Origin: Owenia fusiformis
Taxonomy: Eukaryota > Annelida > Polychaeta > Sabellida > Oweniidae
Assembly: GCA_903813345.2 (NCBI GenBank)
Contig: CAIIXF020000001.1
Location: 44,471,885 to 44,535,884 of the forward strand
Reading direction: 5' to 3'
Length of the DNA stretch: 64,000 nt
Every line of letters begins with the position of its first letter. Within the stretch, counting starts at the first letter, position 1. The notes beneath the pieces were generated by a model. It saw nothing but the letters and a program-made list of their open reading frames with translations. It was not told where the DNA came from and did no database searches. Below are positions 108-41,200 of the stretch, one piece after another. Position numbers and translations under genes: made by a program.

Positions 108-515
108 AACCTCCCTATTTAGATGAAATTCCATGAATGATATGATTATCCCACCGAGCGAAGTTCGAGGGGGATATAGAGAAGCCGTCCGTCCGTCCGT
201 CCGTCCGTTCGTTCGTTCGTTCGTTTGTCTGTGTTTCCGGGCAAAAAGTCCGGTTGACGAATTTGATTCAAATTTTTTAGGTTCATGCCTTATGGGGCAA
301 AACCTCTGCTTGAGAAGGAATTTTCAATATGGCAACTCAATTCAAAATGGCCGCCATTTTTCGTAAAACTGTTATCTTTGATAACTCAAATACTAGTAAA
401 TGGATTTGGATCAAATTTTATATGCTGATACCAAGGGACTAGGAAACTTTGATCGAGAAGAAATTTTCAAGATGGCCGCTGATTTTCAAAATCGCCGCAA
501 TTAAAAATAACTTAA

Positions 516-1478
516 GGTAACGGTAAAGTTAATCAAAAGTACAAAAAATGGCAGTCATATTTATTTGACTAAGTCACAAGATTTTGTATTCTGTTTTCCT
601 TATATGTGATGCATTTCCTGACTAAAGAGACTTGTCAAAGAAAACTTCACATTTAGACGCATTTTTTATAACTATGAATCGGAGGTGCATGGGTCCCTAA
701 AGCTAGCATGGAGACAGTGAAGTGAGGATAACTTTTTAAAATTTCAAGGAGTAGGATTGCAATGGAGACACATTTGTAAGTTTTTCCACAAATCATCTTA
801 CCTTACCAAGGAACATCAAAGGATCATGATAACATGTACTTCTTGTATAATAAAGCTCAAACCATTGTAAATTCTAAATATCTCATGTCCACCATTTTGT
901 TTCCTGGGACTATTTTCTAGTCCAAAGTAATCCTCACTCATGTCACATCAATTAAGTATCTATCATGATTAGTATACTGTTATAGATAAAATATATTAGT
1001 GATAATCCATGCCACTTGGTGAAGTCACAAAAACTTGTATGAGGATTAATCAGGAAGTCTAGAAGTAGTTCCGCCAAACAAAATGGGGGACATGACATAT
1101 TTATAAGAAACTATGGTTTGAGCTTTATCATACTCTAACAATGCAAGAAGTGCAGATTTTCATGCTCCCTCAATGTTCCCTGGTAAGGTAATATGGTTTG
1201 TGGAAATTTTGGATTCTTGCAAATGTGTGACTTTAGCAAGGCTACTCCTTGAAACTTTCAAAAATTAGCCTCATTTCACGGTCTTTATGCTAGCTTTGGG
1301 GACCCATGCACCTCCAATTCATAGTTGTAAAAATGCGTTTAAATGTGAAGTTTTCTTTGACATGTCTCTTAAGTCAGGAAATGCATTCACGTATAAGGAA
1401 AACAGATACAAAATCTTGTGACTTAGTCAAAAAATAAGGCTGCCATTTTTTGTACTTTTGATTAACTTTACCGTTACC
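516..1478. mobile_element. Foldback DNA element flanked by TTAA
   Basis: A 963-bp imperfect palindrome. The arms (about 516-915 and 1065-1478) begin GGTAACGGTAAAGTTAATC and end with its complement. TTAA lies on both sides (512-515 and 1479-1482), the target duplication of piggyBac- and Kolobok-type transposons. Removing the element and one TTAA restores an uninterrupted unit of the surrounding array (ATAAC-TTAA-ATAATAC), which supports insertion. It has no transposase, so it is nonautonomous. Confidence 0.85.
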
Positions 1479-2046
1479 TTAAATAATACTTGTAAACGGA
1501 TTTCAGTCAAATTGTATATGCTGATGCCGAAGGATATAGTAGCTCTGTTCAAGAAAGAATTTTCAAGATGGCGGCTGGATTTTAAAATGGCTGCCATTTT
1601 TTGCAAAAATGTTATCTTTGATAACTTAAATACCAGTGAATGGATTTGGCTCAAATTTTATATGCCGATGCCTAGCGACATAGTAGCTCTGTTCTTGAAA
1701 AAAATCCGTAATCTTTGATAACTCAAACACCAGTGAACGGATTTGGTTCTTTTATATGCTGATGCCTAGGGACACGATTGTTCTGTTGACAAAATAATTT
1801 TCAAGATGGTGGCCGATTTCAAAATGGCTGCCATTTTTCATAAAAGAATATATTCGTTGATAATTCATATGTCGATGCCTGGAGACAAACAAGCTCTGCT
1901 CACGAAGGATTTTTTAAGATGGCGGTTAAATTTCAAAATGGCTGCCATTTTAACTTAATCTTTGATAACTCAAATAACAGTTGACTGATTTGGTTCAAAA
2001 CATATAAGCTACTAATACTACCTAGGGACAAAAGAGCTCTGTTTAA

Positions 2047-2648
2047 AGGAATATTCCTTGCCAAACCATCTCTCTCCTCATATGGTAGCTATAACCATAT
2101 ATATGCTTGCCATGTTTAGCAAAACACGCAAAAATGTTTTGATATGGTCAAATTTGATCACTTAGAAATGTGATGCTCAATTCCAGTAAGCTGCCATCTT
2201 TTAGAATTTCACACAGGAAGTGATGTCATCGACTCTCACCTTTGCATATAGCATTAGGTGAGGAGCTATTAAGAATTACAAAACCAGCTAAATATTCTTT
2301 TTCAACTTTGTATCTTATTTAATCCTTCTGAAAATCTCTTCTTTTATTCTAAGTTGACAAGCCCTGAAAATATTTTTGCAAAGAAAGTAATGATCACTTG
2401 TCTAGAAGTGATTTTGTGCTACTTTCCTATACTGTTATGGGCAAGGTTATAGAAGTTGAGAGTTGATGACATCACTTCCTGCAAGAAATCTTAAAAGATG
2501 GCAGCTCACTGGAAATAAGCACTAGATTTTTAAATGATCAATATTGACCATATTAAAACATTTTCCCATGTTTTGCTAAATATGGAAACTATATATATGA
2601 TTATAGCTACCATATCAAGAGAGAAAGGATCTGGCAAGGATTATTCCT
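2047..2648. mobile_element. Second TTAA-flanked foldback DNA element
   Basis: A 602-bp imperfect palindrome with termini AGGAATATTCCTTGCCA and its complement. It is flanked by TTAA at 2043-2046 and 2649-2652. The arms run inward for roughly 230-250 bp, passing a matched pair around AGTGATGTCATC. The host array unit (GAGCTCTG-TTTAAGAAGAAG) is continuous across the insertion. Its terminal sequence is unrelated to the element at 516-1478, so it is a different family with the same target preference. Confidence 0.85.
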
Positions 2649-3021
2649 TTAAGAAGAAGTTTTCAAGATGGCAGCTGAATTTCAAAATAGCCCCCATTTT
2701 TGGAAAAATAAATCTTTGATAACACAAATACCAGCGGATGAATTTGGTTTAAATTTTATATGCTGATACTTTCTTCTTTAATTAAACACAAGAGAGTGCT
2801 ATGCTTCGACGCGCCTGCCTGTTTTTTTTTAACTCACTCGGTCCGTTTGTCATGCAGCTGGTACCAACCTTTACATTCTCCGATAATATGAACACCACTA
2901 TAGCCAGAGCGGTCGACCTTTAAGCGCTACCTGTTGTAGGCACTGCTCTGCCCTTGATGGTAAAAGGGATGGTGAACAAACTCTCGGTGAATGTACTTGC
3001 AATTGTCAAATAAGTCATTGA

Positions 3022-4212
3022 TTAATGTTGTCTCCCCTGTGCCCATTTGTCATTTCTCCTCAACCAGAGCCAGCGAGAGGCTTCCTCTGCTGCATATCCA
3101 ACTGCTTTATTTGCTCTCTTAAGCCATTGGGGCGGTAGTCCTACATTCTTGAACATTCGGTTTAGAGATGTCGATTGGAATCCTCTACAACCTACTTCAA
3201 CAGGATAGTAGTGAACTTTCCAACCTTTGGTCTCTATCTTCTCAATTAGCGCTTTTGAGTTGGTGCTTCTTCAATACGATCTTCCCAAGGTACGGTAAGT
3301 TCTATCATCACAGCACTTCTTTTATCCTCTGAGAATAAAAGCATATCTGGTCTTTGGTTTGTTGTAGTGATACAGTTGGGAAATGTGAGTCTTTGGTGTA
3401 GATCTCCTCTCAGCTCCCAGTCCTGTGCTTGTTGTTGTAAGATGCCAAATCTTCCTCGAAAGGTGTACCTGCTACCGCTAGGCAAAACCTTTCCTTTAGG
3501 ATTTGTTTTAGCACCCACAAAATGTCTTTCTAAGGGTTACAACTGCTTTTGGCGTGATGTTGCAGTTAGATTTGTTTTGTTCATAATTTTTGCTTGAGCC
3601 ACCCAGTGAGAAATCTTTTGGAGAACTTTGTCGTGTCTCCATGTGTACTCGGGATATGTTGGATGTTACTTCTCTGAGCTCCACAGTGAATACATGACGC
3701 GTCTCCATTCCCCAAGTCCCCAGATCGTGAAATTGGCAGGACATGGTAAAAGATCAGATATTGCTCTTACTAAGAAACTGATCTTGCCCTGAGAGAACTG
3801 AAAGCTGCTTCCTGAGACTGTCTCTTAAATCTTTCAGTGCCAGTTTTTCCAAGTCAGGGACATGCTTCCATCTCCATGTGAGCCTTCTCATATCTCTTTT
3901 TAGTGCAGCTTTTCTCCTCCGTCTCCTACTTGGTCCAGTTTTACCCTCATTCTTGCTGTTTGTTCCCTTCTCTTGGAATCTTTCTGCACACATGGTGTAC
4001 ACTTGTCTTGTCATTGATTCCATCTTCTCACAAGCTGTCCCTTTCAAGGAGTTCTCTAGAATATTGTCAATTTCATCATCAAGTTCTTTCCACACTGTCT
4101 GTTGTTGCAGGCAAGCGCAGTCTTGGCTTCCTTTCGAGAAGTGGCCCATCGTTCTCTTCTCTACCAATTTAAGTTGGGTTAGGTTCAACAGTAACTTGGA
4201 GGTCTTGAACAC
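3022..4212 (-). pseudogene. Decayed LINE open reading frame (linker and C-terminal parts)
   Basis: Reading the minus strand from about 4212 down gives a basic helical segment (RRRRRKAALKRDMRRL, then LKDLRDSLRKQLSVL). It resembles the linker ahead of the reverse transcriptase in invertebrate non-LTR elements. Further on are RPDMLLFSEDKRSAVMIELT at about 3290-3350 and, in another frame, YYPVEVGCRGFQSTSLNR with WLWLRRNDK and a stop at 3022-3024. These resemble the C-terminal region of the same kind of element, as remembered rather than searched. The reverse transcriptase catalytic core is missing and the surviving frame is broken at about 3246 and 3510-3750. It is a fossil; the LINE clade is not assigned. 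Confidence 0.55.
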
Positions 4213-4706
4213 TGTTCAAATCCTGTATTTTACGGACAGGGGACTCCTTCCTACACTGTTTCTGCTTCTCGTGACACTTCATATTTCCCTTGTGTATGGC
4301 TACTCCTCTCATATTTTGAAAAGTCCACCACAACTGTCACATCTTGCCCTTGGCTCTACGGAGTGCTTTGTTCGAAAATTTCCAAGATGGCCACTAATTA
4401 TCAAAACAGGTTCTCGTTATTTATTACTATATGAGTCACTGTATAAACTTTATTTGAGGAAAACTAAATATTTTTACAATAATGCATTCATTTGTTTATA
4501 AATATGGTTGCCATTTTATTATCTGTATATGGGAGAAAATAAACATGTTAGCACAGATCTTTTGGGAGATAATATATTTGAGCTTGTAAGGAATACATTG
4601 GTAAGGAATACGACAAGGTACAGTAAAAAAATATACCGTAGTACACTTTAGATGTACGATGTTTAAAATATACCGTAGTACACTTTAGATGTCGATGGTT
4701 ATGCGT
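4213..4706. other. Noncoding spacer with repeat scraps
   Basis: No gene was recognised. A scrap of the AAGATGGC repeat lies at about 4378-4400. A 33-bp direct duplication containing ATACCGTAGTACACTTTAGA occurs at about 4633-4690. Confidence 0.5.
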
Positions 4707-5935
4707 GGTAATGTAAATCCAGATTTTCTCAAGAGCTCTCGGGTAAGAGCGCTTAGCTAAAACGTTTTAGGACCCTAGTCATAGCCTGTTTAAACGTTTT
4801 ACAAGCGAGTGTAAATCCATCGGTTTTAGCTAAGAGCTCTTGCCCGGTTTTTTGCGTTGCGCTGAACGAAAAATTTGAAACTTTCTGTTTACGTGTGTCT
4901 GGTCATTTCTTTTCTCTTATCCCTTGTTCCCAATAGCATCCCAAAATATCGAGAAGATCTTGTTTGCCTGGCTATCTATCATAACCCTAATATATGCACC
5001 ATATCTTCATTCTCTCTTTCATGCTTTTAACAATGCTGTCTTTAGGACATATTTTTGTAAGACCGATGCATTCTTTAGCACAAAGTATAGAAGCGGGAAA
5101 GGAATAGCTATATTGACTGAACCGTCATTCAACCAGTACAGAACTGCTTTTTTCATTTTACATGTATACCTACATATCTCTAAGACGTTTTAGAAAAACA
5201 GTTGTAAACTCAATCATATTTCGTAAGACGTCTTGAAAATGGTGGTGTAAACTCAACATAATTTTTCTAAAACGTTTTAGCCAAGACGTCTTGGAATGCC
5301 GTGTGTAATGTAAATAGGGCTAGGTGTTGGATTTACACTAGCGCCCTAAGACGTCTTGGCCAAAACGTTTTAGCGTTAAAACGTTTTACAAATGTAATGT
5401 AAATCCAGATTTTCTCAAGAGCTCTCGAGAGCGCTTAGCTAAAACGTTTTAGGACCCTAGTCATAGCCAAGACGTCTTATAGTTCCTGATTTCATGTGTA
5501 GCATGGTTCTTTCTCTTGTCTCATCCCTTTATTACCAATATCATCCAAAAATATCGAGAAGAACTAATTCGCCTCGCGTTCTATCATAATACTAATATAT
5601 GGACAAAATCTTCCTAAAAGCATGAAAACTTTCATGCTTGTAACAATGCTCTCTTAAGGACATTTTTGAACCGATGCATTCTTTATAGTACGGGAAAGGG
5701 ATAGCTATGTTGACTGAACCATCCTTCAACCAGTGTTGAACTGCTTTTTTCATTTTACATGTATGCCTAGGCCTACATATCTCAGTCTAAGACGTTTTAG
5801 AAAAACATGTGTAAACTTATTCATATTTCGTAAGACGTCTTGAAAATGGTGGTGTAAACTCAACATGCTTTTTCTAAAACGTTTTAGCTAAGAAGTCTTG
5901 AAATGTCGCGTGTAGTGTAAGTAGGGCTACTGCCG
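4707..5935. repeat. Duplicated block packed with 14-bp palindromes
   Basis: Two diverged tandem copies (about 4711-5390 and 5397-5935) share the opening ATGTAAATCCAGATTTTCTC and most of the following sequence. The block carries 15 palindromic words with an ACGT core. CTAAAACGTTTTAG is perfect at 4757-4770, 5267-5280, 5439-5452 and 5874-5887. CCAAGACGTCTTGG is perfect at 5281-5294. Variants lie at 4792, 5182, 5225, 5348, 5362, 5378, 5469, 5789, 5832 and 5890. AAGAGCTCTT-like palindromes also occur. The frame at 4924-5193 looks incidental. Function unknown; possibly a mobile-element subterminal array or bZIP-type sites. Confidence 0.7.
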
Positions 5936-8114
5936 AACCCCCGGGCGCCATCATGATCATTGCAATAAACTTGAACGGCGGTCGGGCAATGTCTTATATG
6001 AAATGGCATTATAGTGTTTCCACGATTATCTTGTAATATTACTTTTTATGTTATGATTATCGGGATTTATGGAGGAACCATTGATGTTCTGGTGGACCCG
6101 GTGTGATGAGAAATTATGGTCCCCAGGGCCCGCCCCAGGGATTATGGTCCCGCTTTTTAAAGGCCCTTACTGGCCCTGATTGTGTATAAGATAATAAGGG
6201 AAAGAGGTCACCATATAAATCAATGGAGAGTAGGACCATACATTAATAGGACCTCCTAACCTTTTCACACGGTTCTGAACGACCAAGGTCTTTCTTTAGT
6301 TGGCGTGCCTCTCATTAGCATAACGCGCCATTCCAAAACGAGGCACCATTTTAAAATGGCAGCGCCCATGGGCACATTTGTTTAGGTAAATATTTTGAGT
6401 CTTTTTCACGGTTTTCTAGTTGTATAGTCCAATTTATATACATATTTCGTTCCCCTGGTATTAATGATTTAATATCCTCTGATACTTACCTTTATATGAG
6501 ATGCGATCTGGCCATTTAGATGGTATAACTCGTCGAACGATCGATTTTTTACTTTTTTTCAATTTTTTTCTTACACTTTCGTCGTTTCGATCCGGAGTTC
6601 ATTCTCTCATTGTCAAAAACAAATTAAGACATAAGTATTAATTATATTAATTGTATAACATGTCTGAACAATAGGGAATACATCTATTCTATAGGAGCTA
6701 ATTTTTACAACGTTTTGACCATTTTATACATTGGGAGACATTATAAATCGCCATGTTTGTGATCCAAGGAGGATTGACTCCCAGAAATGCAACATCAGTT
6801 AACCTTATTTACGAGTGACAAAATGCCGTTCTGCCATTTTGAAAGCTGGCACGTGTCATGTTGCATTCTGGGAGCCAATCCTCTTTTCGGCGTAATCAGG
6901 CTCCAAAATTACCTCAACATTTGAAGAGTAGGCATTAACATGTGAATATCCACTTCAAATTTTTAAGTTTCTATTTGTCAATATGGACACAAATTCCACA
7001 ATATTTGGACTTACTAGGACGGAGAAAATAGAGCACTGAATACACTGAGGTAAGAATTTATTACATGTGCGACAGCATGTAATTTTCATAGCTTTTGTAA
7101 TTCTTTATGTTCCCCACTGTAGTTGGAATCGAAGAGCCTCTTGAACAGCAATGAACCTTTTACCTGATGATACACAGCTTTGAAGTCAATTATATTCCCA
7201 TGCTATAAAGTCAACAACCCTTGCTGAAATCCTCATTTTCCCAGAAGAACTCGAGTTTATTGAGTCTAAGCAAGTAGATTCATGTGGGACAGTATTGCTA
7301 GAATCTATTTCAATAGAAAGAATAGGGGTTGCATAAACAGTACATGGGACTTGCCCTATTAGAACTTTTTGTTGGTTCTTTCTGCTCAGGTGTCAGTTGA
7401 ACCATTTTGCAGGCCTATTTTAGAATAAGTTCAGCGTTTTGCCAAACCTTTTTTCGAGAGTTACTCAGTTCCAAGTCCAGTTCAATATGGAAAGCCTGTC
7501 ATCTAACTTAATGTAACAGAAAAAAGAATACTTAAGCCAATTACACATCAATTGCCACACAGGAAGGTAACTTGGCATAGTGCTAATTTTACCACCTCTC
7601 ATTGTGATCAAGATTGCTCAGTCATACATGACAGTTACAAAATGATATTGGTACCATTTGATGGAGAATAAATCAGGCTTTTTACTACTACTTTTATATT
7701 TAAAAAAAACTGCTTAGGATTCTAGTAGTTTGGATTGGAAGTTGGTTATACTTTTTTGTGGACACCCTGTAGATTAGTCAACGCCAGGCAACGAAGTATC
7801 GAGTTTGAATAACAGCTTCCAATTCTCTTTGGTACTTTTCAAGCAGTTCATTAGCTAGACTTCATGTCAGTTAGATCTCTGATTGAACTGGAATCTGTTT
7901 TAGAATGGTGGAGCAATATTTTCAGAATGACCTGACATGTCTGCGAACGTCAATGTCAAATCCTTCCCTTCAGCATTGCCAGTATCTGCCTGCGTATTGT
8001 GCCATACATGTATAGATGCGGTATATTTTAAGAGGAATCACTTCTTCCTCTTGTAGTGGCTGCTCTAGTTGCAATCACAGGTTTTGTACTGTCACATATT
8101 TCCTGTATTTTCCA
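5936..8114 (+). other. YEATS2 upstream region; promoter and 5' UTR exon not resolved
   Basis: No coding exon was seen. The first coding exon has a splice acceptor, so at least one noncoding exon should lie here or further upstream. Candidate donors follow TTTGTTTAG at about 6392 (GTAAAT) and CACTGAG at about 7050 (GTAAGA), neither decisive. Inverted copies around GATTGACTCCCAGAAATGCA (about 6773) and its partner (about 6865-6892) mark a MITE-like insert. A dispersed repeat starts at about 7206. Confidence 0.35.
7206..7325 (+). repeat. Dispersed repeat, copy 1 (CTTGCTGAAATCCTCATTTT)
   Basis: This ~115-bp segment recurs in YEATS2 intron 2 at about 8587-8710, and a truncated copy lies at about 47808-47840 in intron 12. 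All three are on the + strand and share CTTGCTGAAATCCTCATTTT. The first two also share CATGTGGGA and TATTGCTAGAATC. Family not recognised. Confidence 0.6.
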
Positions 8115-14200: not shown

Positions 14201-17200
14201 AGATACAGTGGCCTGGCTCATGAAAAAAATGTTCTCATGAATTTTTTCGTACATTAACCACACCATCCCCAGCCCCTTAACATATGTATCACTTAATCCC
14301 TATGCAGAAAGAAACATGATACTGCCTACTTAATATTTAATTAGCTTGTTGCTGCTAGCAACTGCAGCATCAAAATGGCAGCCTGCTTACTTCCTCTCTG
14401 TAGCTAGGAAAGATATCTTCACTTTCTACCTCAATTACACATCTTTGCTTTGATCCTTAACTCTTAGTTTGTCAATTTATATACTCTCAATACTCAGGAA
14501 TTGAACCAGATAAAGTGTGCAGCCCATCTGTAGACAGGGAATCTTGTTATATAAGTTCAAACTTTGAAGTATCAAATCTATCTCTATCTCTCATTAACTT
14601 AATGGCCATTAACATTATCCCCTTATAAGTAAATTTCCTGCATGTCAAGCAGTATGCAAATTGTACCAAATATAAGTTAAGACCCTCCCCTGTAGGAATA
14701 AACAGGTCTGGGGGTGCTTGATATGCCAGATTTCTTGAAATCCTGCTTCAAATATGCCTTACTGAAATCAATATTTTGAAGTACACATGCGGTAAAGGAT
14801 GCATGCAGACACAAAATGGATACAAGTGATCATAGCAGTTATCATCAAAAGGCTTTAGAAAAGATATGTAGACTATGTGGAGAAAAGACAACAGTATATA
14901 GAAAAAAATACAAGCCATTGTCAATTACAAAAGTACAAGAATCAATTCAAAAAGCAATTCCCGGATTGAAATTTGATAATGACAATCCATTGTACCATCC
15001 TGCAAACATATGCCAGAAGTGTTACAATTGTGCTAAACATTATCAGTATAAGGATGTATTTAATTCAAATTTGAAGGACAAAATCACCAACATAAATGAA
15101 AAATGGATATATCCCAAAGAAGCCACAAGAGAAAAGTGTGCAATATGTATAAATTATAGTGACAATAAATGTCTCAAGCCGAACAAAAGAAAATATTCAG
15201 AAATTGCATTGGATACATCGGAAATTAGCTTTAATGAAAATGACATTTCTGATCAACACAGAAGCACCCCTAAAAAACAGAAAACACCCAATAAGCCCAC
15301 TAATAGGAGTATTGACCTGGGTATGACACCTGGACGTGGCCGTGATCAAAGTATCAGGGAGTTATTCAAGAAACCTATTAATGAAAGATTATCTGTACTT
15401 GAAGAACAGCTATTGACATTCCTTGTGAAAAGAAAATTAAAAGCCCATAATGACCCTGAAGAGCTCATTGTAAACAACAAAAGAGGAAAGGTAATTATCT
15501 TATTGTGATATTCACTTAATCCCCATTGAGATAGTACTTGTAATTATCTATGCTTAATTGCCGCATCAACCCCTTACAAGGTATTTTCTTTAGTTGATTG
15601 GGAGGGGGGTAAATAAAGATTGTTTATTTTATTAAGAATACCAAAACAGATATAAGTAAAACTACAATTTCAGTGCCTCAGATTTGTCCTAGTGCCAGAA
15701 CCAAGGGTAGGCAGTGATAAGGCCTCATCACCATTGAAAAGAAAACGAGCCAGAAAACTGCAGAAAATAAGAGAAAAAATAAGTGGCAAGGGCAGTGATT
15801 CATCAATCTCTCAGCTGTCAAAAGAATGGCTTGTTCAACGGAGAAAAAAGAGGGCCAGGGAGCGTTTGGAGTTTTTATGTAAATTAAAACCCTCTGTCAT
15901 GAATACCCGCAAAATAATGGCCATGAAAACAAAAGCTAAAATATCATGGGGACAGTTAAAGGAGATATCAAGGTTTTTACGTTCATTTAATGTAAAAATG
16001 GAAAGCCAAAACAAACAAAGGGAATATAAAAAGAAATTACTGAGCAAGATAAAGCTAAAAGCCAAACTAAAACTTCTCAGAACTAGAGATCCCAATGCCC
16101 CAGATAGTAAGAAAGGAATGGTTTATAAAAAACTGCCAATGGCCTATATTAGTAATCTGCCAAAGTACCTTGGAGACCACCTCAGCATGATGTCAGAATT
16201 CAGAACATTGTGTCTGGATCATCCAGTTATTCCAAAAAACGAAATATGGGTAAAATTAGGTGCAGACCATGGAGGAAATAGTTTCAAAACGACACTACAA
16301 GTGATAAACACTGCATCACCCAATAACACAAACAATTGCTTAGTTTTTGCCATGTTTAGAGCAAAGGATACAAGGGATAATTTGGATACAGTTCTTAAGA
16401 GATTTAAGCCAGACATAGATCAGATTAACAATATGACATGGCGGGGTAAAAAAATCAAGCTGTTCATGTGTGGCGACTATGACTTCTTGACGAAGGCAAT
16501 GGGCTTATCTGGGCCATCTGGTTCCTACTCGTGTCTATATTGTCATATTCGTCATACACAATATAGTATTCCTAGAAAAGAAAGAGAATCACTCGGGATC
16601 ACAGAGAGATCACAAATGACTTTAAAAAGTGATTATGATAAATTTATCGATGAAGCTGAAAGTAATATTTCCAAGGCAAAACACTATATGAATGTAATCA
16701 ACGAACCTTTATTTGACATAGAAATCAGTCGGATTTGCCCTCCATACTTACATATTTTGTTGGGAATTGTTTTAAAGCATCACAATATCCTTCTAAAAGG
16801 CTGTAATCAAATTGACCGTGCCTTGGGTCGTGCTATTGCCAAGGACAATAGATTGCCAGATAATAAGAGGGATACACCCTTTGGTGAATATGTAGAAAAG
16901 TGGGAAAAAATACATTGTCTCAAAAAAAAACTGAGATGTGAAAATTCCAAAACATTAAAAAATGAAATTAAGGAAAAAATCAAAGAAGAAAAAAGTGAAT
17001 TGGAACTAAAATCGACCAAGGGACCAATTGGAGCCGAAATGGACGTTGTACTCAAAAGACATCATATCAAGCGTGCGGCTTATTTTGGTGGAGCGTTTGA
17101 GGGCAACCATGCGAGTCGTTATTTAAAAAGAGATGTCATTGAGGATGTGGCCAATGAGGTTGTCAGAAAAACCCATTCACTATCAAGCACCTTAAGTTGT

Positions 17201-20200
17201 GAAGACAAACTTCTAGACAAAGCCCATGTATTAAAAAATAAAGTGATCAAAATCAATGAAGCTTTTGCCATTGTGCATAATTACATTGGACATTGTGAGC
17301 GCATCGAAGAAGCCCAAATTCAATCAATACAGCTGAGTATTGACAATTACCTGGCTATATATAGGAAAGAGTTCCCGGACATAAAAGTTATCCCCAAACA
17401 GCATTTGTTAGAGGACCATATTGTCCCATGGATAAAAACTTACAAATGTGGCATGGGCCTTGGGGGAGAACAGGGTGTTGAAGCTGTCCATAAAGTCTTC
17501 AATCATCTGGATCGTCGAATGTGTGGAATACGGCATGAGGTAAATAGACTCGCTTCAACTCTCTCAGAACACCTATTGTCCTGCCAGCCTGAGATAACAA
17601 CCGCTACTCCAATAATAAATAAAAGAACACCCCGCTGTGTGAAGAAATTATTAGAATAACTTCTGTTTGGTAAGTCAAAATATGTTTTATATGCTGTATA
17701 TGTGTTTAATTTGATGTTTCTTAAACTTAATCTGTAATGTTCTCTCAAATTTTAACATACAATGTTAAAGTCATATGAAGACTGTTTAAAATTCTGTTTT
17801 AAGTAATTTTCATCAAATTAAACATAGATACAAAAGACTTTCCATCTAATAAAATTGATACTTCATAGCTTGAATTCTGTCAGGTGTATCTAACAAGTGC
17901 TTTGTACCCCGAGAAATACTAATTTCTGAACCTTTTGTTACCTGGGCTGCTACTTTGTAACTCAATGATAATTACTTGATATAAGAACAAGAGATTAGGA
18001 ACAACAGTACTTTGCCATTATTTAGAAAGATTAATACATTTTGCCCATGCTGCATGCTAAATGAAGTAAATATCATTACATGTGCATGTGGAAAAGTCCA
18101 TCATTCATGATAAAATCAAAGGGTTTATAGCAATACCATACTAATCCCAGACTAACATGTTTAAAATAATAATTCTGGCCTGTTTTAAAACAATTTAGTA
18201 TAGTTAAAGATGTGCACACATTTGACAGTGGAGAAGAGGCTAATTACTTTGATAGTGATAGTAACTGGCCTTAAAATAATCACTGCATAGTATCTTATTA
18301 CTGACTACTGGCTAGACATAGCCTCTCTGCATAGGGATTAATTAAGTCTTGCGCCTGTGAAGAAGACTAATTGCTACTGCAGCACATCTGGTGCTGAAAA
18401 CATGAACTGCCATTAAAAGTTCACTTGAAACATGGTGTGTAACACGACTGGGCATAAATATACCATGAATACTCCTCCGGAATCCGCCGCTCCGCCTCTT
18501 CGTCTGGTCAGAATCCAAATCTGAATTTGCAGCGATCGAATGTTCAATTTTTCAATTCAGAAAATATTCTAGTTTCTATTTTCGATAACCGTTATCGGCT
18601 TCCAAGAGCCTAAAGAGCTCGAAATCGTAATCCATTTTCTCCACATTTTCGTTGTGATCGTATTTGTCCACCATTTTGTACGATTCGTTCACTAAAAACG
18701 ACTAAAACACTGTTTAAATTGTTGAATTGAGAATTATTTATCGAAATATCGCCATTTCTAGGTCAACAGGAGGTCATGTTAGGCACTGAATAAATCGGGC
18801 AATCTAATTGGACAATACGAATGGCGCGAAAAAGTAAAGTTTTTAAAAGTTTGAAATCGGGCGTACGGGTCCGCCGGCAGTTGTGAGAGACATTTTAGTC
18901 TCGGCGGACGAGTCCACCGGCAGCACGCTAAGGGTTAAGGTACTCCTAGAACCGTACCATCTCTGGATGCTTCCTGTCCGATGCCCCAATCTCTTGAAAT
19001 CAACAATTTATAAAATTATTTTCAATCCACTTGGTGAGTATCCATCATCTATGAGTGAATGCATAAAAATTGAATTTTTTTCTTGTTTTGCAGGTTGTTG
19101 ATGTTGAGATTGAAAGAGACACTTATGAAGAAATGCCAACTCCTGTTAGCCCACCACCCACCCCTACCACCACTGACGCTACCAGAGAAACACCTCAATC
19201 TAGTGCGAAAAAGAGAAAACGTAAAACAATAAAATCTGAACCATTATGCAGCAATACTGTGATAGCTCATGATAATGTGAACCAAGACTCAGTTGAAGTT
19301 CCTGCCATGTCCCCTATGGGCAGTGAACCAGGGTTAGATAATTCTGGAAAACTAGTGAATTTTACCCAAGGGTCGAGTGTGTATACAATATCAGGGGGCA
19401 GGTTGTCACATAGGGCCCATAGCTCTATGAGCATGGACTCTGATTCCATGAGTAGCATTTCCACCAATAGATCTAACACAACCACACCAACTAAGTTAAA
19501 TGAATCAATAGGACTTGACGCATCCTTGAGGTCCAACACACCAACTCCAACAAAGCAACTGGATAGAGGAACACCCACTAAGATCATAATAGGTGGTGCT
19601 ACCATCAAGCAAGAAGGACAGGATACAGGTTATGAGACTGCAAGTAATGATTCATTTGGATCTGGATCAACTGGGGTCCATATGGGTAGTAGTTCTGGGT
19701 ACAGCACTGTGAGGATAGCAGGGGGCTTGGTCCAGCCTGGAGTCAAGTCTGAGAGTGCTCCCCCTTCCCCCAGTGGGAAACGAACCAATACATCTACACC
19801 AACTTTCCTAGGCCCCAGTCACACAGTCCCACCCTCCCCTGGAAGGCCAACTCCTGGGTTAACAAGCCCCATCAAAACAGAGGTGAAAACTGAAATGGGT
19901 GCCCCACAAACTGCAACTGGTTTGGCTCCATCTACAGTATATGTTAAAATTATGGATACTCAGGGAAAGACATATCTCATACCACAACATTTGTTACAGA
20001 CTACTCCAGGTGGACAATTGATTTTGCCTGGTCTGAAGACACCTACCCCTGCAGCAGCAACACAGGCTGGGAAGCCAGGGGGGAATATTCTCCAGCAAGC
20101 TATGCAAAGTGCTGCCATGGTTAAACCTTTGGCCCCTCCTACCTCCAAGCCTGTGGCCAGCCAATCTGGGGGTGCCACTAACTTAATACTCTCAGGAAGC

Positions 20201-23200
20201 CACATGAATACCCAGCCACACTTGACAAAAAGCGTGACAAAAACTAAACCAGCTCAGACACCTGGAATACATCTCATTCAAAGTGGGAAGAATTTATCGG
20301 GCTCTCAACTTCGCCTCACTGCTCCTCTGCCACAGCCTATAGGCAAACTGGCAAATCATACAGGATCAGGTTTACTCCTTGGCAAACCTGGCACCTCTAC
20401 TGCTCAATTTATACCTCTCGTGGCTTCTAGTTTACCCTCAGGATCTGTATCAGCGTTTGGCAACCTTCCACGCACTGTCATGAGTGTTATAAAACCAGCA
20501 ACTTCAACAGGTTTGTTGTCACCTGGTAACATAACCAATAAGCCCTCTGTTGGCCCAGGTGCGGTATCTTTACTGACAGGCTCCTTAAAAGGAGCAAATC
20601 AAAAAATGAACATTCAGGGAACAAATATTGTGTCATCTGCTGAACAAATGCGCATAATGTCATCAACTGCATGTGTATCCATGACAAACGTATCGAGTAA
20701 TTCCAAACTGGTAACTCGTGTGTCAACTGCCAAAGCTGGATTGAGACCCGGAGTGGCAGTTAATAGAATCTCAGGCTCTACCCCTCTCCCAGTAGCTCCA
20801 ACGAGTGACTCCCAACTCCTTCGAACAATACTTGACAACAAAGCTCTTCTTGGCTCACATTCCCTCATTCATCCCACTGCTGTTAAGTCCAAGGTGAAAG
20901 ACAGGGCACCATATAAATACAGAACTCCTACCCCTCCCCCTCAGGGAGATAACCATGTGGTACCTGCTAATGATAAGGAACCTAGTCATACTAAATCCGA
21001 TACAAAAGTTCAAACCCCGACTCCAATGTTAACAGCTAGTGTGGGTAATCAAACATTAGTTTTGAAACTACTACCGGATCAACAGAGTATCAATTCAGCA
21101 ACCAATCAAATCGTCCTCTTGCCAACACAAAGTAACTCGGGCAATAAGTCACATGTTATACACAAACCAGCTGTGTTAAAACCTAGCACCAATCAGGCGA
21201 CAGCTCCTCAAAAGGGGACGTTGAAACCTCAACAGACCACATATGTGATAGCCAACTGTGGCGCTCCACCTGTGCATGTTAAACAAGAACCTAGTTATGG
21301 AGAGAAGATTAACAAACTCAAGGAGAAGATGGAGTTAGAGGCAAAGAAAAATGCAGTTCATATTCCTAAACCCAGGGACCAAAGTCTATGGTGAGATATT
21401 ACATTGCCTTTTAGTATTGTGATATTGAAGGTTATTAAATAGGAGGGTTTATATAAATGATATACTTAACATGTATATTTTCAAAGGATGACTTACTTTA
21501 TATGTACAAAAGCACCCATTATATATAACGGTAACTGATTTATCCCATAATTATTGAAATCAAGAATGAGATATTATAATTGAAAAATCTCAATTGGAAA
21601 TATTTTCCACACCATAAATGTTTTACACTGATGTACATATAACACTGGTGTACATATAACACTGTGTTCATATTATGCTGGCTTTCATTTCATGTTATTT
21701 CATATTAGTGTTCTGTTTACCTTAGTGTTCAACATACATTGATGTCCAGCTTATACATGTGTCCAGCTTGTACATGTGTCCAGCTTGTATATGTGTCCAG
21801 CTTATACACGTGTCCAGCTTATACATGTGTCCAGCTTATACATGTGTCCAGCTTATACATGTGTCCAGCTTATACATGTGTCCAGCTCATACACGTGTCC
21901 AGCTTATACATGTGTCCAGCTTATACATGTGTCTTGCTTGTATATGTGTCCAGCTTGACCATGTGTCTAGCTTATACATGTGTCTAGCTTATACATGTGT
22001 CCAGCTTATACATGTGTCCAGCTCATACATGTGTCCAGCTTATACATGTGTCAAGCTTTCAATGTGATCATTATGTATAGGTGCTTAATGCCAAATCTTT
22101 CTTTATTACAGCTTACAAAATGTTGAGAACATGGAATGTCTTGTAAAGATGCTTGTGAAACAACACCCTCTCATAGATCCTGAAGCAAACAAAGGTGAGG
22201 GAATTTTTTCACAAAATAAAAATAATAAATAATAAAAACAGCTTCAAATAATTTTTATGTTACTACCACAAGTGATGACATATTATGGTCTCCAACTTTT
22301 TTGCGGATGGTGTTCCGCGGTCAGCATCTATTACAAATGGCGGGTAGTGACATTTTGCATGTTACTGTCTTGTTTATTTGAGTATTCTAGAAGGGGGTCT
22401 GTTGTGAACTCATTGGCGATAATGCTTATTTGCATTTTACTTCCTTTCAGAATACAGTTTACACCCTTATTGTGCTGCTACTAAGGAAATGTTTTTCAAA
22501 TGGAATGTTGGGAAACGACGTGCTGCAGAGGTAGGTCTATGTTTTGAATGTCCAGGAAGTCCGTATCATAATCGTCACACATATACACTATTATAGCCAA
22601 ACCTTGTTTGCAACCTTTCTCAAATATCTTGCCTATATTGATGTATATTACAGCGAAACATTTGGGGTGATTGGCCATGGGCCTTTTATTTTCTACATTT
22701 TAAAATAATAGTTTTCGCTCTTTTACTCCAGTGGCATCGTGCTGTGTTTGTCCGTAAAAAGATCTTGATGTTGTTAAAAACCCAACCAAACCCTCGTGAA
22801 CTGAATGGAGAAAGTATCTGGAAGACATATAAAATTGTGAAATGGTGCAGGCGCCATCTATTCACACCTCTTGATTATGGTGAGTACTATTTTTTTGTTT
22901 TTAAATGGTACTGCACTTATTAAAATAGTGTCAATGTGTCTTATATGACCTCCATAAACAGTTTTTGCATATTATTACATTGAGCTAACGGTAAAGATGG
23001 ATACTTCTCAGTAATCTCCCCAGCATTAGAACTACCATGTGCAGTACCATGTTGAATATCTGTTTGGACCATGTGAAGACAAACGGTGGTTACTCCTCAT
23101 TTGGTAATCATAAGTACAGTGATGTATGAGATGTGAAACACAGGGTTTCTTTCTATATACTGTTACAATAATGGAGGATGAGAAAATGTTTGCAATTCTA

Positions 23201-26200
23201 TTTTCCTATTACCATCTAATGGAATGATTATTGTTTCATTTAGAGAATAATGAATGCAAAATTGATGATTGTTGTCTAATTATGCGTATGAACAAGTGAA
23301 ATTCATTTGTGCCAACCGGCGATGGATGAAACCAATTTTGCATTTATTATTGTAAATCAACTAGGCAATTCATGATGAATGCAAAAGTGATGAAATCTAG
23401 TAATCTGAGGAACAAAGCTAACATGTCGATTAATTCTAAAAGTACTTAGTTTTCACTGGGAAATAATGAGTTTCGACTTGGAAAACATTGTATTGGATGA
23501 AATATTTCTGGTCAGAATAACGCAGATGCGAGAAGTTAGTTACCAGATTCCCCACCAGGTGGCTCGTACGGGTCAGATAGCATGTCGGGTATGGTAGAAA
23601 GTTCCCTTTTACTTAAATTACATCTATTTGCGTGGTTCAATTTTCATATAACCCTTATGTATCTAATAGTTATAAAAATTAAAATATGTCCAGTAAAAGA
23701 AAATGCTGTAAGTCCAATACGAGAAAAGATATTTCTTTTTTTGTGATTTTGTAACATGGGGTCTATGGGGGATCAACCCGAACAAGAAGTCACATTTTTA
23801 AAAAAATTAAATTTTCAAAGTTGATAGACAATTTTCGAAACCATATTTCTTGATGAACTTTTACATGCAGATTTCAAATATGACATCGCTTTGACTGAAT
23901 TTTGAATTCTGTGCCATGGTTGAACTTAGAGTTCTGTGCCATGGTTGAACTTTGAACTCCTCTTGATTGTTGAAAGTTGTTTTCGTGGGAGCTCTGAAAC
24001 AATACTTTAGTATCATATTGAATAAACATAAAAAACAAATTAACAAATAGTATTTTTGATATATATTTCTTTATAAAACTAATTATAAGTTGATTGTTCT
24101 ACATGGATTAAACTGATCTTTGCATATAACACCACTTTCGTCTTATGATGATTATTACAATTTTCTTGGGATTTCTATCCAACTGAGACTAATAGCCATA
24201 CATTTGTTGTTTATGAATTTTATGAATAGCAAGGTTTATCGCTCCAACAGAGCTACAATTGTTGGTTGTATAAGATATATTCATTGTCTGGTACCAACTA
24301 TTCTCTTGAAGGGATATTATAGGCTTGTATACCACAATCTATAAAATGGTATTCTGGTCGCCATGGTTATTAATTCATTCAAGATTTAGGGACCGTGTCA
24401 ACATTTTGATTTTCCAAAGTATAATTAATTACATTTTGGATTAAGCTCCTTCCTCTCCCAGTAAAGATAACATTTTTTGATTTCATCAAATTAACCATTT
24501 AAACACAGATGGAGACTGACACAATGTTATGGATCTTTACTTTCTCCTATGAATTGTAATAAATTATGTTTGTTGAATATCAATGTTATATTGGAATATC
24601 AATACCTCTGTATGGAGCTTGTCTGTAGCTTGTTTGTATTGAGAAATATGAAAAACTCAATGTCAATAAAAAGTGCATTGCATCTACTTTCCTTGTATAT
24701 TTTCATTATAATACTATAATGGCATGAGTACAGTTTGCATATACTGTGAATTGATTGCATAGCTTTTTGTAAAGATTTCTAATGTTATCTTATGATAATG
24801 AATTTAACTCTTACTATATATTTACATGTTATGATTATGTGATTTGCTAAACTCCATAACAATGCTTTAAAGTGGCATCAAAGGGTAGAATGTGTAAAAT
24901 GTTTGGAGCAATCTTTTCAATAACCAATGTAAATGTTTACAAATGTTACAAATCCAAATTTCAATATTTGAAACAGGATTTAGGATATCTGATCAAAGGA
25001 GGTAATTAAAGATATAGAAATTCCTTAATGCTTGAAAATTGAAAAATATCAATTTGTTTTAGAATGAATGCAAGTTAACATTAAACTTTTGGACTTAAAG
25101 GAAATTATAACTTTTGGATTTATTCTATCCTTTAGTGCTCCTTTATGGCTAAACCTAGGAATACATGTTATGGTAATACTAGACTGTAAAGTTGGTGTTT
25201 GATTGCCATTCTGATTTTAAGCCCTTTGTGTAACATAAGTTTCTCTCACAGTGCTGAAATTACAATCTAAATGCTAATATAATATCATCTTAATAGAGTA
25301 TGTGTTTGACAGGAACAAAATAAACGTTAATGCAATATTAACCTCTTGGATACCAGCGACATAACAAAAAGTGTAGCACTATTTTTCACCTGAGTTGCTT
25401 TGGCCTTTTCAATGTCTATTCAATTCACATAATTTTTGATTTAAAATGTGTGTATTGGGTCTGTGTTTACCATAACCATTCTGAACATCACAAATTGTTT
25501 ATTCAGTGAAAAAATGGGAATCGTGGCAAAATTTTAAAGATGCCCAGCTGGTATCCAAGGGATTAAAAAGTCACAGTAAACCCTTGAAGCTGCATTGTTA
25601 GGTCATGCCTAATTGTACCAATGTTGGTGTTTATAATCCTGTTTCTAAAAGATAGGTGGCAGTTGGTTTTGGTTTTGTGACAATGTGTGATTTAGAAGGC
25701 ACTGGTGGTTTTGCTATAGTTACAGGCCTTTTCGTAGGTCCTGGTGTATCATACGTCCTGATTGGCTGATCATAATCCATACAGTCTGTGGACATTGGGC
25801 CCTCGTAGTATTTGAACACTTTGATGTTTTTGCCATCCGAAACAACCAGCTCACCCTCGGAGTTGATTGCCACATCTTGGGGCTGCCGGATTCCATCATC
25901 TGCAGTCAAGACGTACCCCTTGAATTTACCATCTGTGGTTATGATATGGATCCTGTGGTTGTTGTAGTCAGCCACGAGGATATCTCCATTCCGATTGGTG
26001 CAGATTCCACATGGTACATCTAACTGTTGAGGGAGGAATCCCCAACTGCCGTACTGATACAGAAATCTCCCCTGGGAGTCAAACACCTTGATAAAGTGAC
26101 CCTCAAAATCTGAGACAATGATGTCGTCATTTTTGTTGACGCAGACATACTCTGGACACATAAATATCTGATCTTCCCCTGGTTCGGGGATCGAGTACAG

Positions 26201-29200
26201 GAGGCCTCCTTCGGCATCATGGACCTTGACACATTTCTCTTCAATATCAGTGGTGATGATTTCACCTTTACGATTGGTTGTGATGCCCCAGGGGGTCTTC
26301 AGATGTGGGCACAATGTCTCAATAAACTTCCCATCCAGATTGAACACTTTGATGCCACAAACTCCATGCGCTCGATCTGTCACAGCTATATGTCCATTTT
26401 TCAAGACACATACATCCCATGGGTCTATGAGTTTATTAGAACCTTCTGGAGCTAACTCATTGATAAGTCGTCCCCGCTTGTTGAATATTTTGATCTTTTT
26501 ATTTATATCGTCAATAGCTATAATCTCATCTGTATCAGTGACTGTGATACTAGTTGGCTTGCACCCCATCTTGTCATTCAAAGTCTTTGAAGTAAAGTTA
26601 GATACTTGTTCAGACTTCAATGTAGACCCCATTGGAGATAAAGGGGATGGTAAAGGGGACTTGGTTTGGACAACAACTTTTGGTACTGCAATCTTTGTCT
26701 CAATTATCCGACCAGAGAATTTCTGTAGATCATTCTGTGTGATATGAATGTGAGAAAATTTCAGTGACAATTTACGGTTGATTTTCTCTGGATTGCAAAC
26801 TTCGAAATGTGGATTTCTTTCAAGGATATATTTCTTCATGTGGACTATTTCATCAGGTTTTCCTTGTTTGACTAGCCTGTCAATAAAAGCCTCCGTTGCA
26901 CGTAAAGATGCCAGCTGACTGTCATAGGCCTCCTTGTATGATTCTATTTGACTTTGTTCCCGAGAGCAGCACGAATCTAGTTGCTCTATGAGTGTCTGTG
27001 AACATGCATCAATCATCTGATGCATCTTTTGATTTCTATTGTTTATCTCTTTAAGAAGATGTTCTTTGCTATCCTGAATGTCACTTTCATATTTTGTTAT
27101 GTTAATAATTGCATCCTGGTAAGCTACCACTTTTGAGTTGACACAGTCTCGTGAACTTTTGATGAAATCACGGTCTCTTTTGGCAGTATCTTTCAGTGGT
27201 ACACATCTGTGTAGGGTATGATCAATTTCTCTACATTTGGCACATATTGGTTGGTCGCACTGCACACAGCACATGTCTATAATATCATCTGGGTGTTCCC
27301 AGCAGGCAGAGTCCTGATTTGCTCGCGTTTCATCCACGTATGTTTTCCTTAAAGATGTCCGTTTAGCTGCTCTAGAATGTAATGACACCACTTTGTGAGA
27401 ATTTGTTATCTTCAAACTGTCATGGGCGCGACGACAAAATCGACACAGATTGTGGTTACATTCATGACATTCATACATAGCAATGTCAGACTCACAATTA
27501 TTGCACTTCTGAGGAACAACTATACATGGCATGTCATCAACATTACTCAATTTAGGATCAAAGTCAGGAGTTTGTAAAGCAATCAGGAATATATTATCTG
27601 GTATTTCATCCAGTCCATGTTCGCTTAGCTCAACTTCATTGCTACATATCGGACATTTCAATTGACCAGGTTGTTCTGAGATGACATCAGATGTGTCCTC
27701 ATAATGAATACAGGTTTCAAGGCAGTCATGACAGAATGTATGCAGGCAGGGGAGAAGTTTGGGCTGCATGAGCGGCCCATGGCAGATTGTGCAACACAGC
27801 AGTTCATCTTTTGTCTCCTTCTGGAGAATATCAGGCAGGAAACTATCCATAATACTGGTTTGTTGCTATGGTATCATCAGCTGGTTGCTATGGTAGCACC
27901 TGAAAGTAAACAGTGATATTAATTTTAGTTGACACTTTTTCATACTCAAGTAAATTAAGAATTTGACAGTATGTGCATGTTTTAGGATAAAAAGATATGC
28001 ATTTTCTATAGATATTTCAAAATATTTTAAAGAGGCCACCCATTCAGATCAATTTACTAAAGCGTTTCAAAGAAATGTGGCAGCTAAGATTTTTATCATT
28101 ATAGATCAAATTAGGTTTTTCAGTGAAGGTTGTTCTTGAAAAAAACCCAGTAAAATGTTGCATGTAAAGTAAAACTAACACAGTCTGTTTAGCTAAATAT
28201 TAAGTGTCCAGATACCATGTGAGGAGATTTTGTAATTTAGAATGTCATATATTTATTTCTTTGCTACTTTACTTTGACACTTTGTATATTGAATGCTAAT
28301 GGATACACTGTTGTAAAATACTTGATGAGGAATGTCTGAAAATCTGTAAGATATCATGGCTTTAGGGACCAATGCAAAGGTTCCATGTAGCAGAGCTAAC
28401 TAAATTTTGATAGTTAACACCCAGAACCCCTTCCCCCCTCCCCCTGTTAACTAAATATGAGAAATATTGATCCTCGCAGCATTTTCAAAAGTATATCCAA
28501 ATGCACTTGAGTTCATCATATCGGCCTAATGTGGAGTAAACTGAGATAAATTATCCATGTCAAAATGGGTAAAAGTAATCCTTTAGGTAGCTTAAAGTGA
28601 GAAAGAACCTGGTGGCTTCTCACTTTGAGAATTTGGTTGTGGTTTTGTGGTTAAATATGCCATATCTTATTAATTAAATAGAGTGAATATATGACATGTG
28701 CTTTAGAAAAAACATTTTGGTACACTATACTGTTGTTGTATGTATTTGACATGTTTGTGATTTATTAAATTGATATTGTCAAAGCAGTAATTTCATTTTT
28801 GAGCTAGATTTCAATCAGGAGCTATTGTCCTTAAAATTGCCCTTATAAGTGAATCTATGCAAAGCAAAGGACTTATATTTCAATATTTCAGGACCTTTAA
28901 TCCCAGGACCTTATGCCCTTCAGCCTTTTGCTGAATTTAGCATTAAGTGTTTTCTTCAAGAATAGCTTGTTAAGAACCATACACAATATAATGTCTTATC
29001 ATGTGGTGAGTCATACAATAATACAATCAATCGTTTCGTATCAAGGTTCACAGCAGTGAAATTTTAACATCATATAAATGATAAATTTTATATGGTTTCA
29101 TTGTTATTGTTGATTTTATACTGGTACCTGATTTTTTGTAACATTTTTTACATTGTACATCATTAGATAAATTGTTAATACCATTTTTATATACCTACAT

Positions 29201-38200: not shown

Positions 38201-41200
38201 AAAAAACGGTAGTTTTGCGGAAGATTTAGAAAAAATGCGGTAGTTTTACGGTAGATTTAAAAAATGCGGTAGTTTTTACGGTAGTTTTTTTGAAAAACCG
38301 GTAGTTTTGCAAAAGATTCTGAAAAAATGCGGTAGTTTTACGGTAGATTTTGAAAAAATGCGGTAGTTTTTACGGTAGTTTTTTGAAAAACCGGTAGTTT
38401 TGCGGAAGATTTTGAAAAAATGCGGTAGTTTTACGGTAGATTTTGAAAATTGCGGTAGTTTCTACGGTAATATTTTAAAAAACCGGTACTTTTGCGGAAG
38501 ATTTTGAAAAAATGCGGTAGTTTTACGGTAGATTTTGAAAATTGCGGTAGTTTTTACGGTATTTTTTTGAAAAACTGGTACTTTTGCGGAAGATTTGCCA
38601 AAATGTGATATTTTTCGGTAGATTTTGAAAAATGCGGTAGTTAAACCTTTATACAATGCAGTTTTCTATATTAATACAATGTTTACGTGGTCATATTGTT
38701 TTTGTTATTGTGAATACATATTTTACTGCAAGAGTGCTTTTGATAATTACAGTTTGTAAAGCAGAACTACCACCTGAGAATTATACGAAACTATTATTTT
38801 CAAGAAAAATAGATACTATTTTCAAGAATAAATAGAGACTTAACACTTTTTATTCTTCATTTACCATGCCTACAATGGACTGACAGCAACTTTGGATTTT
38901 AATGTTTCAGCAAAATGTACATGTATATGAATACAACTCTTTTACAACTCTTTTACAATAAATCTAGATTGATTCAAAATACGAACACAATATTCATATC
39001 TCCACTTTCATTCACCTTCTAACCAGTTTTTTTAGATATCAGGATGTTTGGAAATACCAATGAAACATTTACTGAAATACAAAATATGGATTTTGCAAGT
39101 TTTTACTCACCATCTTAGATGATCTATCACTTTAACGAATTGAAATGACAGACATAATGTTCATATAACATTGGAATCATATGGTATTAAATATTGATTT
39201 GTTCACTCGCAAGTCTCTAATGATATCAATGTGTTTGTCTGGCACAAATAGAAAATAAGTACAGATCAATTGTCTTTCAAAAATAATCTGTTATGAGCAT
39301 TTGCTGAAACCTTTCCCCTGAGACATCGTTCAGATTCGGATACCACAATACTTTTATAATGAACCAAAATTCAATGCTTTATTTTTTAAATATGTATTTG
39401 TTACTGATATAATGTGTTCTGATGGAAAAATACAACATTTTATCGTACTGTAAACAAATTGATTAAACTATGTATAATGTATATTTGGCGTTCATTACTG
39501 ATCATAACAAATCAAACTACGCATATTTCATACGCTAAAACAAATAGTTTTTGTCATTTCCACTCATTTATTTAGATGAAGAGCAACTAAAATCATATTT
39601 TTGTTGCATTCGGAATAAAGATCTGTGTACAAAAGGGTTTGGTTAACTACAAAACTCATGGCAGAAAGAATTCTTTCTAGCCTTGGTAGTTGGTGTTTGG
39701 ACTGATTACACGCAAGCTTACTTAGATAAATGCGCAATAACCTGATAACCACAGACCTGCCGATACCTATTTATATTCGGGTTGGTGAAGGAATATTACA
39801 GGGACAGTACAGGAAGACTTCAATTTTTCAGCATTTCCCAACAATAACGGGAAATTTTACGGTAGTTTGAACAAAAATACTGTTGATTTTAGCAGAAATA
39901 CGGTAGATTTTCGAAAATCTACGGTAGATTTTCACAAATTTACGGTCGATTTTACGGCCTTTCTCGTGGAATAATCGAGTTTTTTAAAAAAAAAATTACG
40001 GTAGATTTCGAAAAAAATACGGTAGATTTTTTTACGGGCGTTTTTACGGGAAAAAATGGTATTTCTTTTACGGTAGTTTGTCATTTTTTTACGGAAAAAC
40101 GAAAAATTTACGGTAGATTCCCGTAAAAATACGGTAGGTTGGCAGGTATGATATGGTATACTCAAACGAGATTTCTTGGACCTTCCAAAAAGGTTCATAT
40201 CAGGTTTTTACCCTATAAGGGCTTGATGGATTGTAATGTAGTAACTCCTCTATAATTAAATTTTGTAAGAATTCATTGCATGTTCATAAACTCACATAGT
40301 ATGTTTTGTATTTAATATTTTTTATTTTTTTATTCAGTTAATCTTTATACTTTAGGCATGTATTTTTTTCACAGTAGACTTATGTAATCATGTTACGGTA
40401 TTGTAAGCTGATGTCAGTAAAAGATATATTTACATGTATTACATACCTAGCGAAGCATTTGTATGGAAGTCAATGGGAAAGTTAGCGAGCTATATCCACC
40501 GATATTGCCCGATTACCCCGATATAGCCCGCTTACCTCGTTTTGATATTAGATTTCTTTAATAACCATGATAATATCATGACGTCACGTCATTGATACAA
40601 AGTAACCATGGGAACAAAGGCATGTAATACATCAGTTATGTCACTATGACGTGAAATATGCCTTCGTTCTTGCCCAAATATAGGGCCTCCCAAGGTCGGC
40701 CTATATTGGGAGAACTCAGGCATATTTCACGTCATAGTGACATAACCTCTAAGTATATACATAAATAAAAGAATAATGTTCTATATTATATTTTCTTCAA
40801 ATCTACTGGTAGTATATCATTTGAAAAATTAATCATTTGTAAATGTCTAAATGAACATAACAAAACATGCAAAAGGACACTTTGACCCAAATAACATAAA
40901 CCTCTATACTGTAACATATCATTGTGACAAAGGTTATCAATCTTTAACTAATGAAGTTAAAGTGTTTCATATGACAGACTATTAGTGGTTTCATTGGTTT
41001 TTTTCGGACTGTTTTTATGAAATAAAACTATGATGGTGTTTTTAATCATTTTAATCAGTATTACATTAAATTGTAAAATGTTGACTGGAATATTACATTT
41101 TCAAAAAAGAACACATCCTTTGCATGGAATCCATAAATGCATTCCTTTGACATACTGTATAAGTGGTATTTAATCCGAGTGGTTAATTTTCCGAATGGTC

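Follow-up and report, generated by a model that had tools for sequence, protein, structure and literature searches.

An autonomous-looking Chapaev-type transposon with a RAG1-like N-terminal zinc module in the annelid Owenia fusiformis

To what kind of mobile element does a gene belong whose product appears to join a zinc module like that of the RAG1 N-terminus to a DDE-type transposase, and where does that element end? The question is raised by a locus of the annelid Owenia fusiformis, which we analyzed within a stretch of 64,000 nucleotides (here called the window; assembly GCA_903813345.2, contig CAIIXF020000001.1, positions 44,471,885 to 44,535,884 of the forward strand). An earlier interpretation made from the letters alone (the sequence-only reading) had placed this gene in a transposon with TTAA target sites and had suggested a mobile family that pairs the RAG1-like module with TTAA integration. 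The evidence presented below leaves little doubt that the locus (window positions 14259 to 18439, + strand) is a cut-and-paste DNA transposon of the Chapaev type (CMC/CMCT), 4181 bp long, autonomous-looking and apparently recently mobile, with a single gene that is open throughout. Chapaev elements are distant kin of the enzyme by which antibody genes are rearranged.

The inverted repeat noted by the sequence-only reading is indeed present: a perfect 12-bp repeat, TCCCTATGCAGA, has its arms at positions 14297 to 14308 and 18326 to 18337, with TTAA on both sides. It sits within a 19-bp repeat (left arm TTAATCCCTATGCAGAAAG, 14293 to 14311, +; right arm, 18323 to 18341, +) that is 95% complementary and has the TTAA on its outer side. 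Only two matches to the 12-bp repeat, allowing one mismatch, are found in the window, and this result was equalled in 1 of 100 shuffles. However, these arms, which had been taken for the ends of the element, are internal (subterminal). A DNA search of the genome (498 Mb in 525 contigs, the search space for all genome-wide counts given here) with the element as first proposed returned 36 matches, including a near-complete copy on C9 and a copy in several pieces on C3. Beyond the TTAA, homology among the window, C9, and C3 copies extends 34 bp to the left and about 98 bp to the right before they diverge, so that the ends, read by eye from these shared flanks, lie at positions 14259 and 18439. 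They carry the terminal inverted repeats CACACCAT (14259 to 14266, +) and ATGGTGTG (18432 to 18439, +) and are bordered by a 4-bp target site duplication, TAAC (14255 to 14258 and 18440 to 18443, unstranded). The C9 copy, 99% identical to that in the window, occupies another site and has CACT on both sides; C3 likewise has CTAC on both sides, and its left end reads CATACCAT instead of CACACCAT. When up to two mismatches were allowed, the left end CACACCATCCCCAGCCCCTTA was detected genome-wide in exactly three places, the window, C9, and C3 copies.

Ends of this type are also seen in related subfamilies. The scans for ends covered 22 loci, in two rounds of 17 and 7 with two loci in both, and admitted only CAC...GTG termini with a matching 4-bp duplication; the ends of the window, C9, and C3 copies were first taken from the shared flanks rather than from these scans, and C3 was outside them. 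Good ends were obtained at eight loci (L026, L034, L035, L038, L040, L054, L055, and L056), two more were dropped as weak (L039, with 7 of the first 8 bases and 9 of 16, and L041, with 6 of 8), and the remaining 12 of the 22 yielded no ends, being broken, cut, or outside the limits of the scan. The duplications found in the kin subfamilies are TGGA and TAAT in a pair of C4 copies (C4a and C4b), TGTC in C2, CATA in C7, CGAA in a second C9 copy, and ATTA in C11. The nine copies therefore have nine different 4-bp duplications, and TTAA is not among them. Seven of the eight copies other than that of the window start with CAC and end with GTG, and the eighth, C3, starts with CAT and ends with GTG. 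As a control, the left end of eight among the nine was shifted by 1 to 30 bases, and the flanking 4-mers then matched in 1 of 480 placements. In the alignment of the C4 pair, the left ends were met exactly and the right ends were overrun by 15 and 12 bases; the alignment of the C7 and second C9 copies, which are 99.7% identical, begins 7 bases before and stops 1 base after the named ends.

Two of the scanned loci deserve separate mention. L040 is not counted among the nine, its ends being unlike those of its sisters and unsupported by comparison with a second copy; at positions 1693 to 6365 it has a terminal repeat matching in 15 of 16 positions, CACTGGCTGCCAGC, and the duplication TTCA around sequence that matches the transposase core, and it may represent a further subfamily. 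L056 (positions 561 to 3275) is a Chapaev relative with the module and the core in a single uninterrupted frame of 904 amino acids, the ends CACAGTAG, and the duplication ATTA.

Inside the ends, the copies share some motifs only in part. In the C4a, C4b, and C2 copies, the sequence CACTTAGT is located 21 to 32 bases in from each end; the equivalent left position of the window is occupied by CACTTAAT. In the C7, second C9, and C11 copies, the terminal 200 bases at each end contain none of CACTTA, CTTAAT, and CTTAGT; the subterminal CACTTAGT motif is therefore not common to all copies. The TTAA of the window may be part of a subterminal block such as transposases bind.

The gene itself is as the sequence-only reading described it, an unbroken frame of 886 codons plus stop in two predicted exons (14816 to 15490, +, residues 1 to 225; 15674 to 17659, +, residues 226 to 886 and the stop), separated by a predicted GT...AG intron (15491 to 15673, +). 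The intron is predicted because the frame is continuous across it and because core matches in kin loci are separate from those of exon 1. Exon 1 has tblastn matches, extending over much of it or part of it, in 16 of the 28 loci L026 to L053, and in L026, L034, L035, L038, L041, and L043 separate core matches start at core residue 1 or 2.

Exon 2 encodes an RNase H-like transposase core and matches the DUF1280 family of Pfam (E = 1.9e-17; 64.1 bits, with a cut-off of 25). The hallmark DDE residues of Chapaev, along with its C(2)C, LH, and H(4)H motifs, can be assigned in it. The putative first and second catalytic Asp residues, D423 (GADHGG; 16265 to 16267, +) and D493 (CGDY; 16475 to 16477, +), and the C(2)C motif C512-C515 (CLYC; 16532 to 16543, +) are invariant in all six rows of alignment A2; L584-H585 is the LH pair; and the H(4)H motif H802-H807 (HLLEDH; 17402 to 17419, +) and the putative catalytic Glu, E824 (GEQGVE; 17468 to 17470, +), are kept in the five rows that reach them. 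E824 was assigned this role because of its position after H(4)H. In a Foldseek comparison with solved structures, the 12 best matches of an AlphaFold core model of low confidence, built from six sequences of which one is partial, were all RAG1, BbRAGL (the amphioxus RAGL), or HzTransib, with RAG1 or BbRAGL at ranks 1 to 10 (E = 3.2e-7 to 2.5e-4) and HzTransib at ranks 11 and 12 (E = 0.034 and 0.069). The RAG1/Transib-like core suggested by the sequence-only reading has support from this low-confidence fold. A RAG1/Transib fold is expected of Chapaev transposases as well.

Residues 10 to 111 (14843 to 15148, +) contain a RAG1-like zinc module with H10, C18XXC21, H61P62, C66XXC69, and C108XXC111. 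Part of the RAG1 N-terminus was named the Chapa domain, after Chapaev, in the passage of Kapitonov and Koonin (2015; PMC4411706) cited here. A profile of six modules, unselected for RAG1 similarity, placed RAG1 first among 177,635 PDB sequences with E = 1.1e-6 for the whole sequence, summed from two stretches, the better having 0.0049 by itself; the next RAG1 entries had E = 0.013, and the first non-RAG1 protein had E = 0.12. With a fuller, ten-row module profile, some rows of which had been picked by the RAG1_imp_bd family, RAG1 was retrieved with E = 3.7e-11 over residues 96 to 213 of its full-length chain. The RAG1 score of profile A4 is partly circular because some of its rows were chosen by PF12560; profile A5 was made without such rows. 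The module of L047 finds RAG1 in the PDB on its own (E = 0.00056), and the Pfam family RAG1_imp_bd matches individual copies (L047, E = 4.5e-10; L046, E = 1.1e-9). At E ≤1, this family matches three of the six aligned exon 1 sequences (best E = 1.5e-9), that of the window not being among them. At E ≤10, it has nine matches in the genome, five over the cut-off alone, three only with neighboring stretches, and one under it; the best of these precedes the top-scoring DUF1280 match by about 700 bp, and the copy that contains it aligns with exon 1 of the window at 34% over 93 residues (E = 3.4e-9). Among ten kin proteins scanned, L034 came near the RAG1_imp_bd cut-off (22 of 23.3 bits), and L038, L043, and L054 had no RAG1 match at E ≤0.5. 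As judged by these comparisons, the N-terminal module is homologous, at the family level, to the N-terminal zinc region of RAG1.

Genome-wide, DUF1280 has at least 39 matches at E ≤0.001, many of them in long open frames and some in identically scored sets. Between exon 2 of the window and the two C4 copies and the C2, C12, and C7 copies, all from other subfamilies, the proportion of synonymous differences (pS) is 0.81 to 0.86, which is saturated, and that of nonsynonymous differences (pN) is 0.27 to 0.37; against the C9 copy, the ratio of nonsynonymous to synonymous substitution rates (dN/dS) is 0.09. By these measures, exon 2 is under constraint, which, with the 99% identical C9 copy at another site and its different duplication, speaks for mobility.

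We based the Chapaev assignment on DUF1280, the motifs, the termini, the duplications, and the module and compared these with published descriptions of Chapaev. According to the cited part of Majorek et al. (2014; PMC3985635), DUF1280 corresponds to the Chapaev transposases and falls into the same clade as RAG1. The Chapaev hallmarks given in an excerpt of PMC4079192, namely, CAC/GTG termini, duplications of 3 to 4 bp, C(2)C, LH, and H(4)H, are all seen in the window copy. Chapaev is a clade of the Transib superfamily in the relevant section of Kapitonov and Koonin (PMC4411706), and a portion of PMC12730594 describes CMCT as Chapaev together with EnSpm, Mirage, and Transib, with mostly CA..TG termini and duplications of 2 to 5 bp. 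Given the published Chapa domain, the equation of DUF1280 with Chapaev, and the CMCT features, the element therefore fits a kind already described. It is an ordinary, well-preserved Chapaev, and the union of module and transposase is not new, as that pairing is already in print as the Chapa domain of Chapaev (PMC4411706). The RAG1/Transib-like DDE transposase would bind both the CACACCAT ends and the subterminal blocks, cut the element out, and insert it across a 4-bp stagger, which would give rise to the 4-bp duplications. The Chapa zinc module may have a role in dimerization, nuclear import, or targeting.

Several observations weigh against this assignment. Exon 1 of the window taken alone has no RAG1 match, either with RAG1_imp_bd or in a sequence search of the PDB, so that the RAG1-like module claimed for it is borne out for the family (profile E = 1.1e-6) but not for this copy by itself. 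The mean predicted local distance difference test (pLDDT) score of the core model is 55, and its Foldseek alignments are long, with a large root mean square deviation (13 to 26 in the top twelve); the core profile found no RAG1 sequence in the PDB, where a search with exon 2 alone returned nothing relevant. Exon 2 of the C9 sister copy is interrupted by one stop codon. As for the ends, the terminal repeat is just 8 bp in the subfamily of the window, C3 begins with CAT rather than CAC, and the ends of C2 and C11 come from the duplication-requiring scan, with no second copy compared.

Even so, the alternatives fare poorly. It is very improbable that the transposon ends at TCCCTATGCAGA, targets TTAA, and pairs the RAG1 module with TTAA integration, as the sequence-only reading had it. 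The perfect 12-bp repeat with TTAA on both sides speaks for this view, but C9 and C3 are homologous beyond the TTAA, the duplications outside the true ends vary from copy to copy, and TTAATCCC was not found in the three sister copies checked (C4a, C4b, and C2). The claimed pairing fails on the refutation test that the sequence-only reading had itself set, because the ends and duplications of the other copies fall elsewhere. The sequence TTAATCCCTATGCAGA occurs five times in the 498 Mb, four of them within the related window, C9, and C3 copies, and the fifth, on C10, has no shared flank by eye and is outside the DNA matches of the element. The piggyBac and Kolobok superfamilies have a target preference for TTAA. 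Both were considered and rejected, there being no TTAA duplication and the TTAA being located inside the element.

The best matches of the core fold to RAG1 and Transib and the RAG1-like N-terminal module would also suit a ProtoRAG or Transib element, which would place the locus in the RAG-like/Transib superfamily proper and not in Chapaev. This assignment is highly unlikely, since the duplications in the nine copies are 4 bp and not 5 bp, Pfam gives DUF1280 instead of the RAG1 core, and the RAG1 family PF12940 has no match in the genome at E ≤1, in a search made without a positive control. Domestication of a Chapaev transposase as a host gene would account for the open frame and the strong constraint between subfamilies; yet the ends and duplications that flank the gene are intact and a 99% identical copy occupies another site, which makes domestication extremely improbable. 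A Chapaev-type transposon remains the reading that we adopt.

The window contains other features as well. Just downstream of the element, an open frame of 775 amino acids (19067 to 21394) has no Pfam match at E ≤0.01. Host-like genes encode a RING/B-box/NHL protein (25631 to 27865, -), a cytochrome P450 (44510 to 45670, -), and a protein with a doublecortin domain (58008 to 58484, +), and positions 37923 to 38642 are a tandem array of TTTTGCGGTAGA-type units of about 31 and about 92 bp.

The most novel lead remaining, a weak one, is a resemblance of the module (window positions 14843 to 15148 and its kin) to ZAD, the arthropod zinc-finger dimerization domain. The best match to the Pfam family zf-AD has E = 1.9e-5 and 25.3 bits, with a cut-off of 28; in the PDB profile searches, ZAD is at rank 4 with the fuller profile (E = 0.015) and at rank 10 with the unselected one (E = 0.24); and Foldseek puts it at rank 1 of 14 for the module (E = 0.73; probability, 0.84). 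This is no more than suggestive of a relationship. No paper pairing ZAD with RAG1, Chapaev, or a transposase was found among the matches listed. The Chapa domain is stated, in the text drawn from PMC4411706, to occur in no other known mobile element. In the same genome, L058 (positions 451 to 3552; C3:4985500-4989300) has an open frame of 1034 amino acids with a RAG1-like zinc module and DUF6589 (E = 1.2e-9). A shorter frame of L058 matches RAG1_imp_bd with E = 0.0018, under the cut-off, which it exceeds in the genome search only with neighbors; the RAG1 family is not listed for the full frame at E ≤0.1, and a PDB search with the L058 module returned no RAG1. The C-terminal part of L058 has 32 genome matches, counting itself and many short ones. 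Neither the joining of the module to DUF6589 nor the ZAD resemblance is secure, and we consider it doubtful that the Chapa module of Chapaev and RAG1 is related by descent to ZAD and is also joined here to a non-Chapaev, repeated DUF6589 gene. If this were true, the RAG1 N-terminus would be a member of a zinc-domain lineage moving between transposase cores and host transcription factors.

With the TTAA-integrating RAG1-like element removed as a wrong lead, the account of RAG1 origin is unchanged by the window element alone. A search against the sequences of solved structures confirms that the N-terminal zinc region of RAG1 has a homologue in Chapaev elements, and the several well-preserved Chapaev subfamilies in one genome, some near-identical at different sites, offer material for the study of the module outside RAG1.

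Among known systems, the N-RAG-TP element of Aplysia, a molluscan mobile element with RAG1 N-terminal-like sequence, is comparable by its description in an excerpt of PMC8355894. Transib resembles the window element in predicted core fold, through the HzTransib matches, and differs from it in that canonical Transibs, according to the cited text of PMC4411706, have no N-terminal module, which is present here along with 4-bp duplications. RAG1 and the RAG1L protein of ProtoRAG share with it the zinc module, homologous to RAG1 residues 96 to 213, and match its predicted core fold; they differ in their 5-bp rather than 4-bp duplications, in a core that has no significant sequence match, and in the RING domain. 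No RING is apparent after the Chapa module of the window protein because its CXXC pairs are only at residues 18, 66, 108, and 512, whereas two Chapaev subgroups add a RING in the pages of PMC4411706 cited. Apart from this and from the internal 19-bp inverted repeat, which is not in the three sister-subfamily copies checked, the window element is the same as Chapaev in its CAC...GTG termini, 4-bp duplications, DDE residues with C(2)C, LH, and H(4)H, DUF1280 core, and Chapa module.

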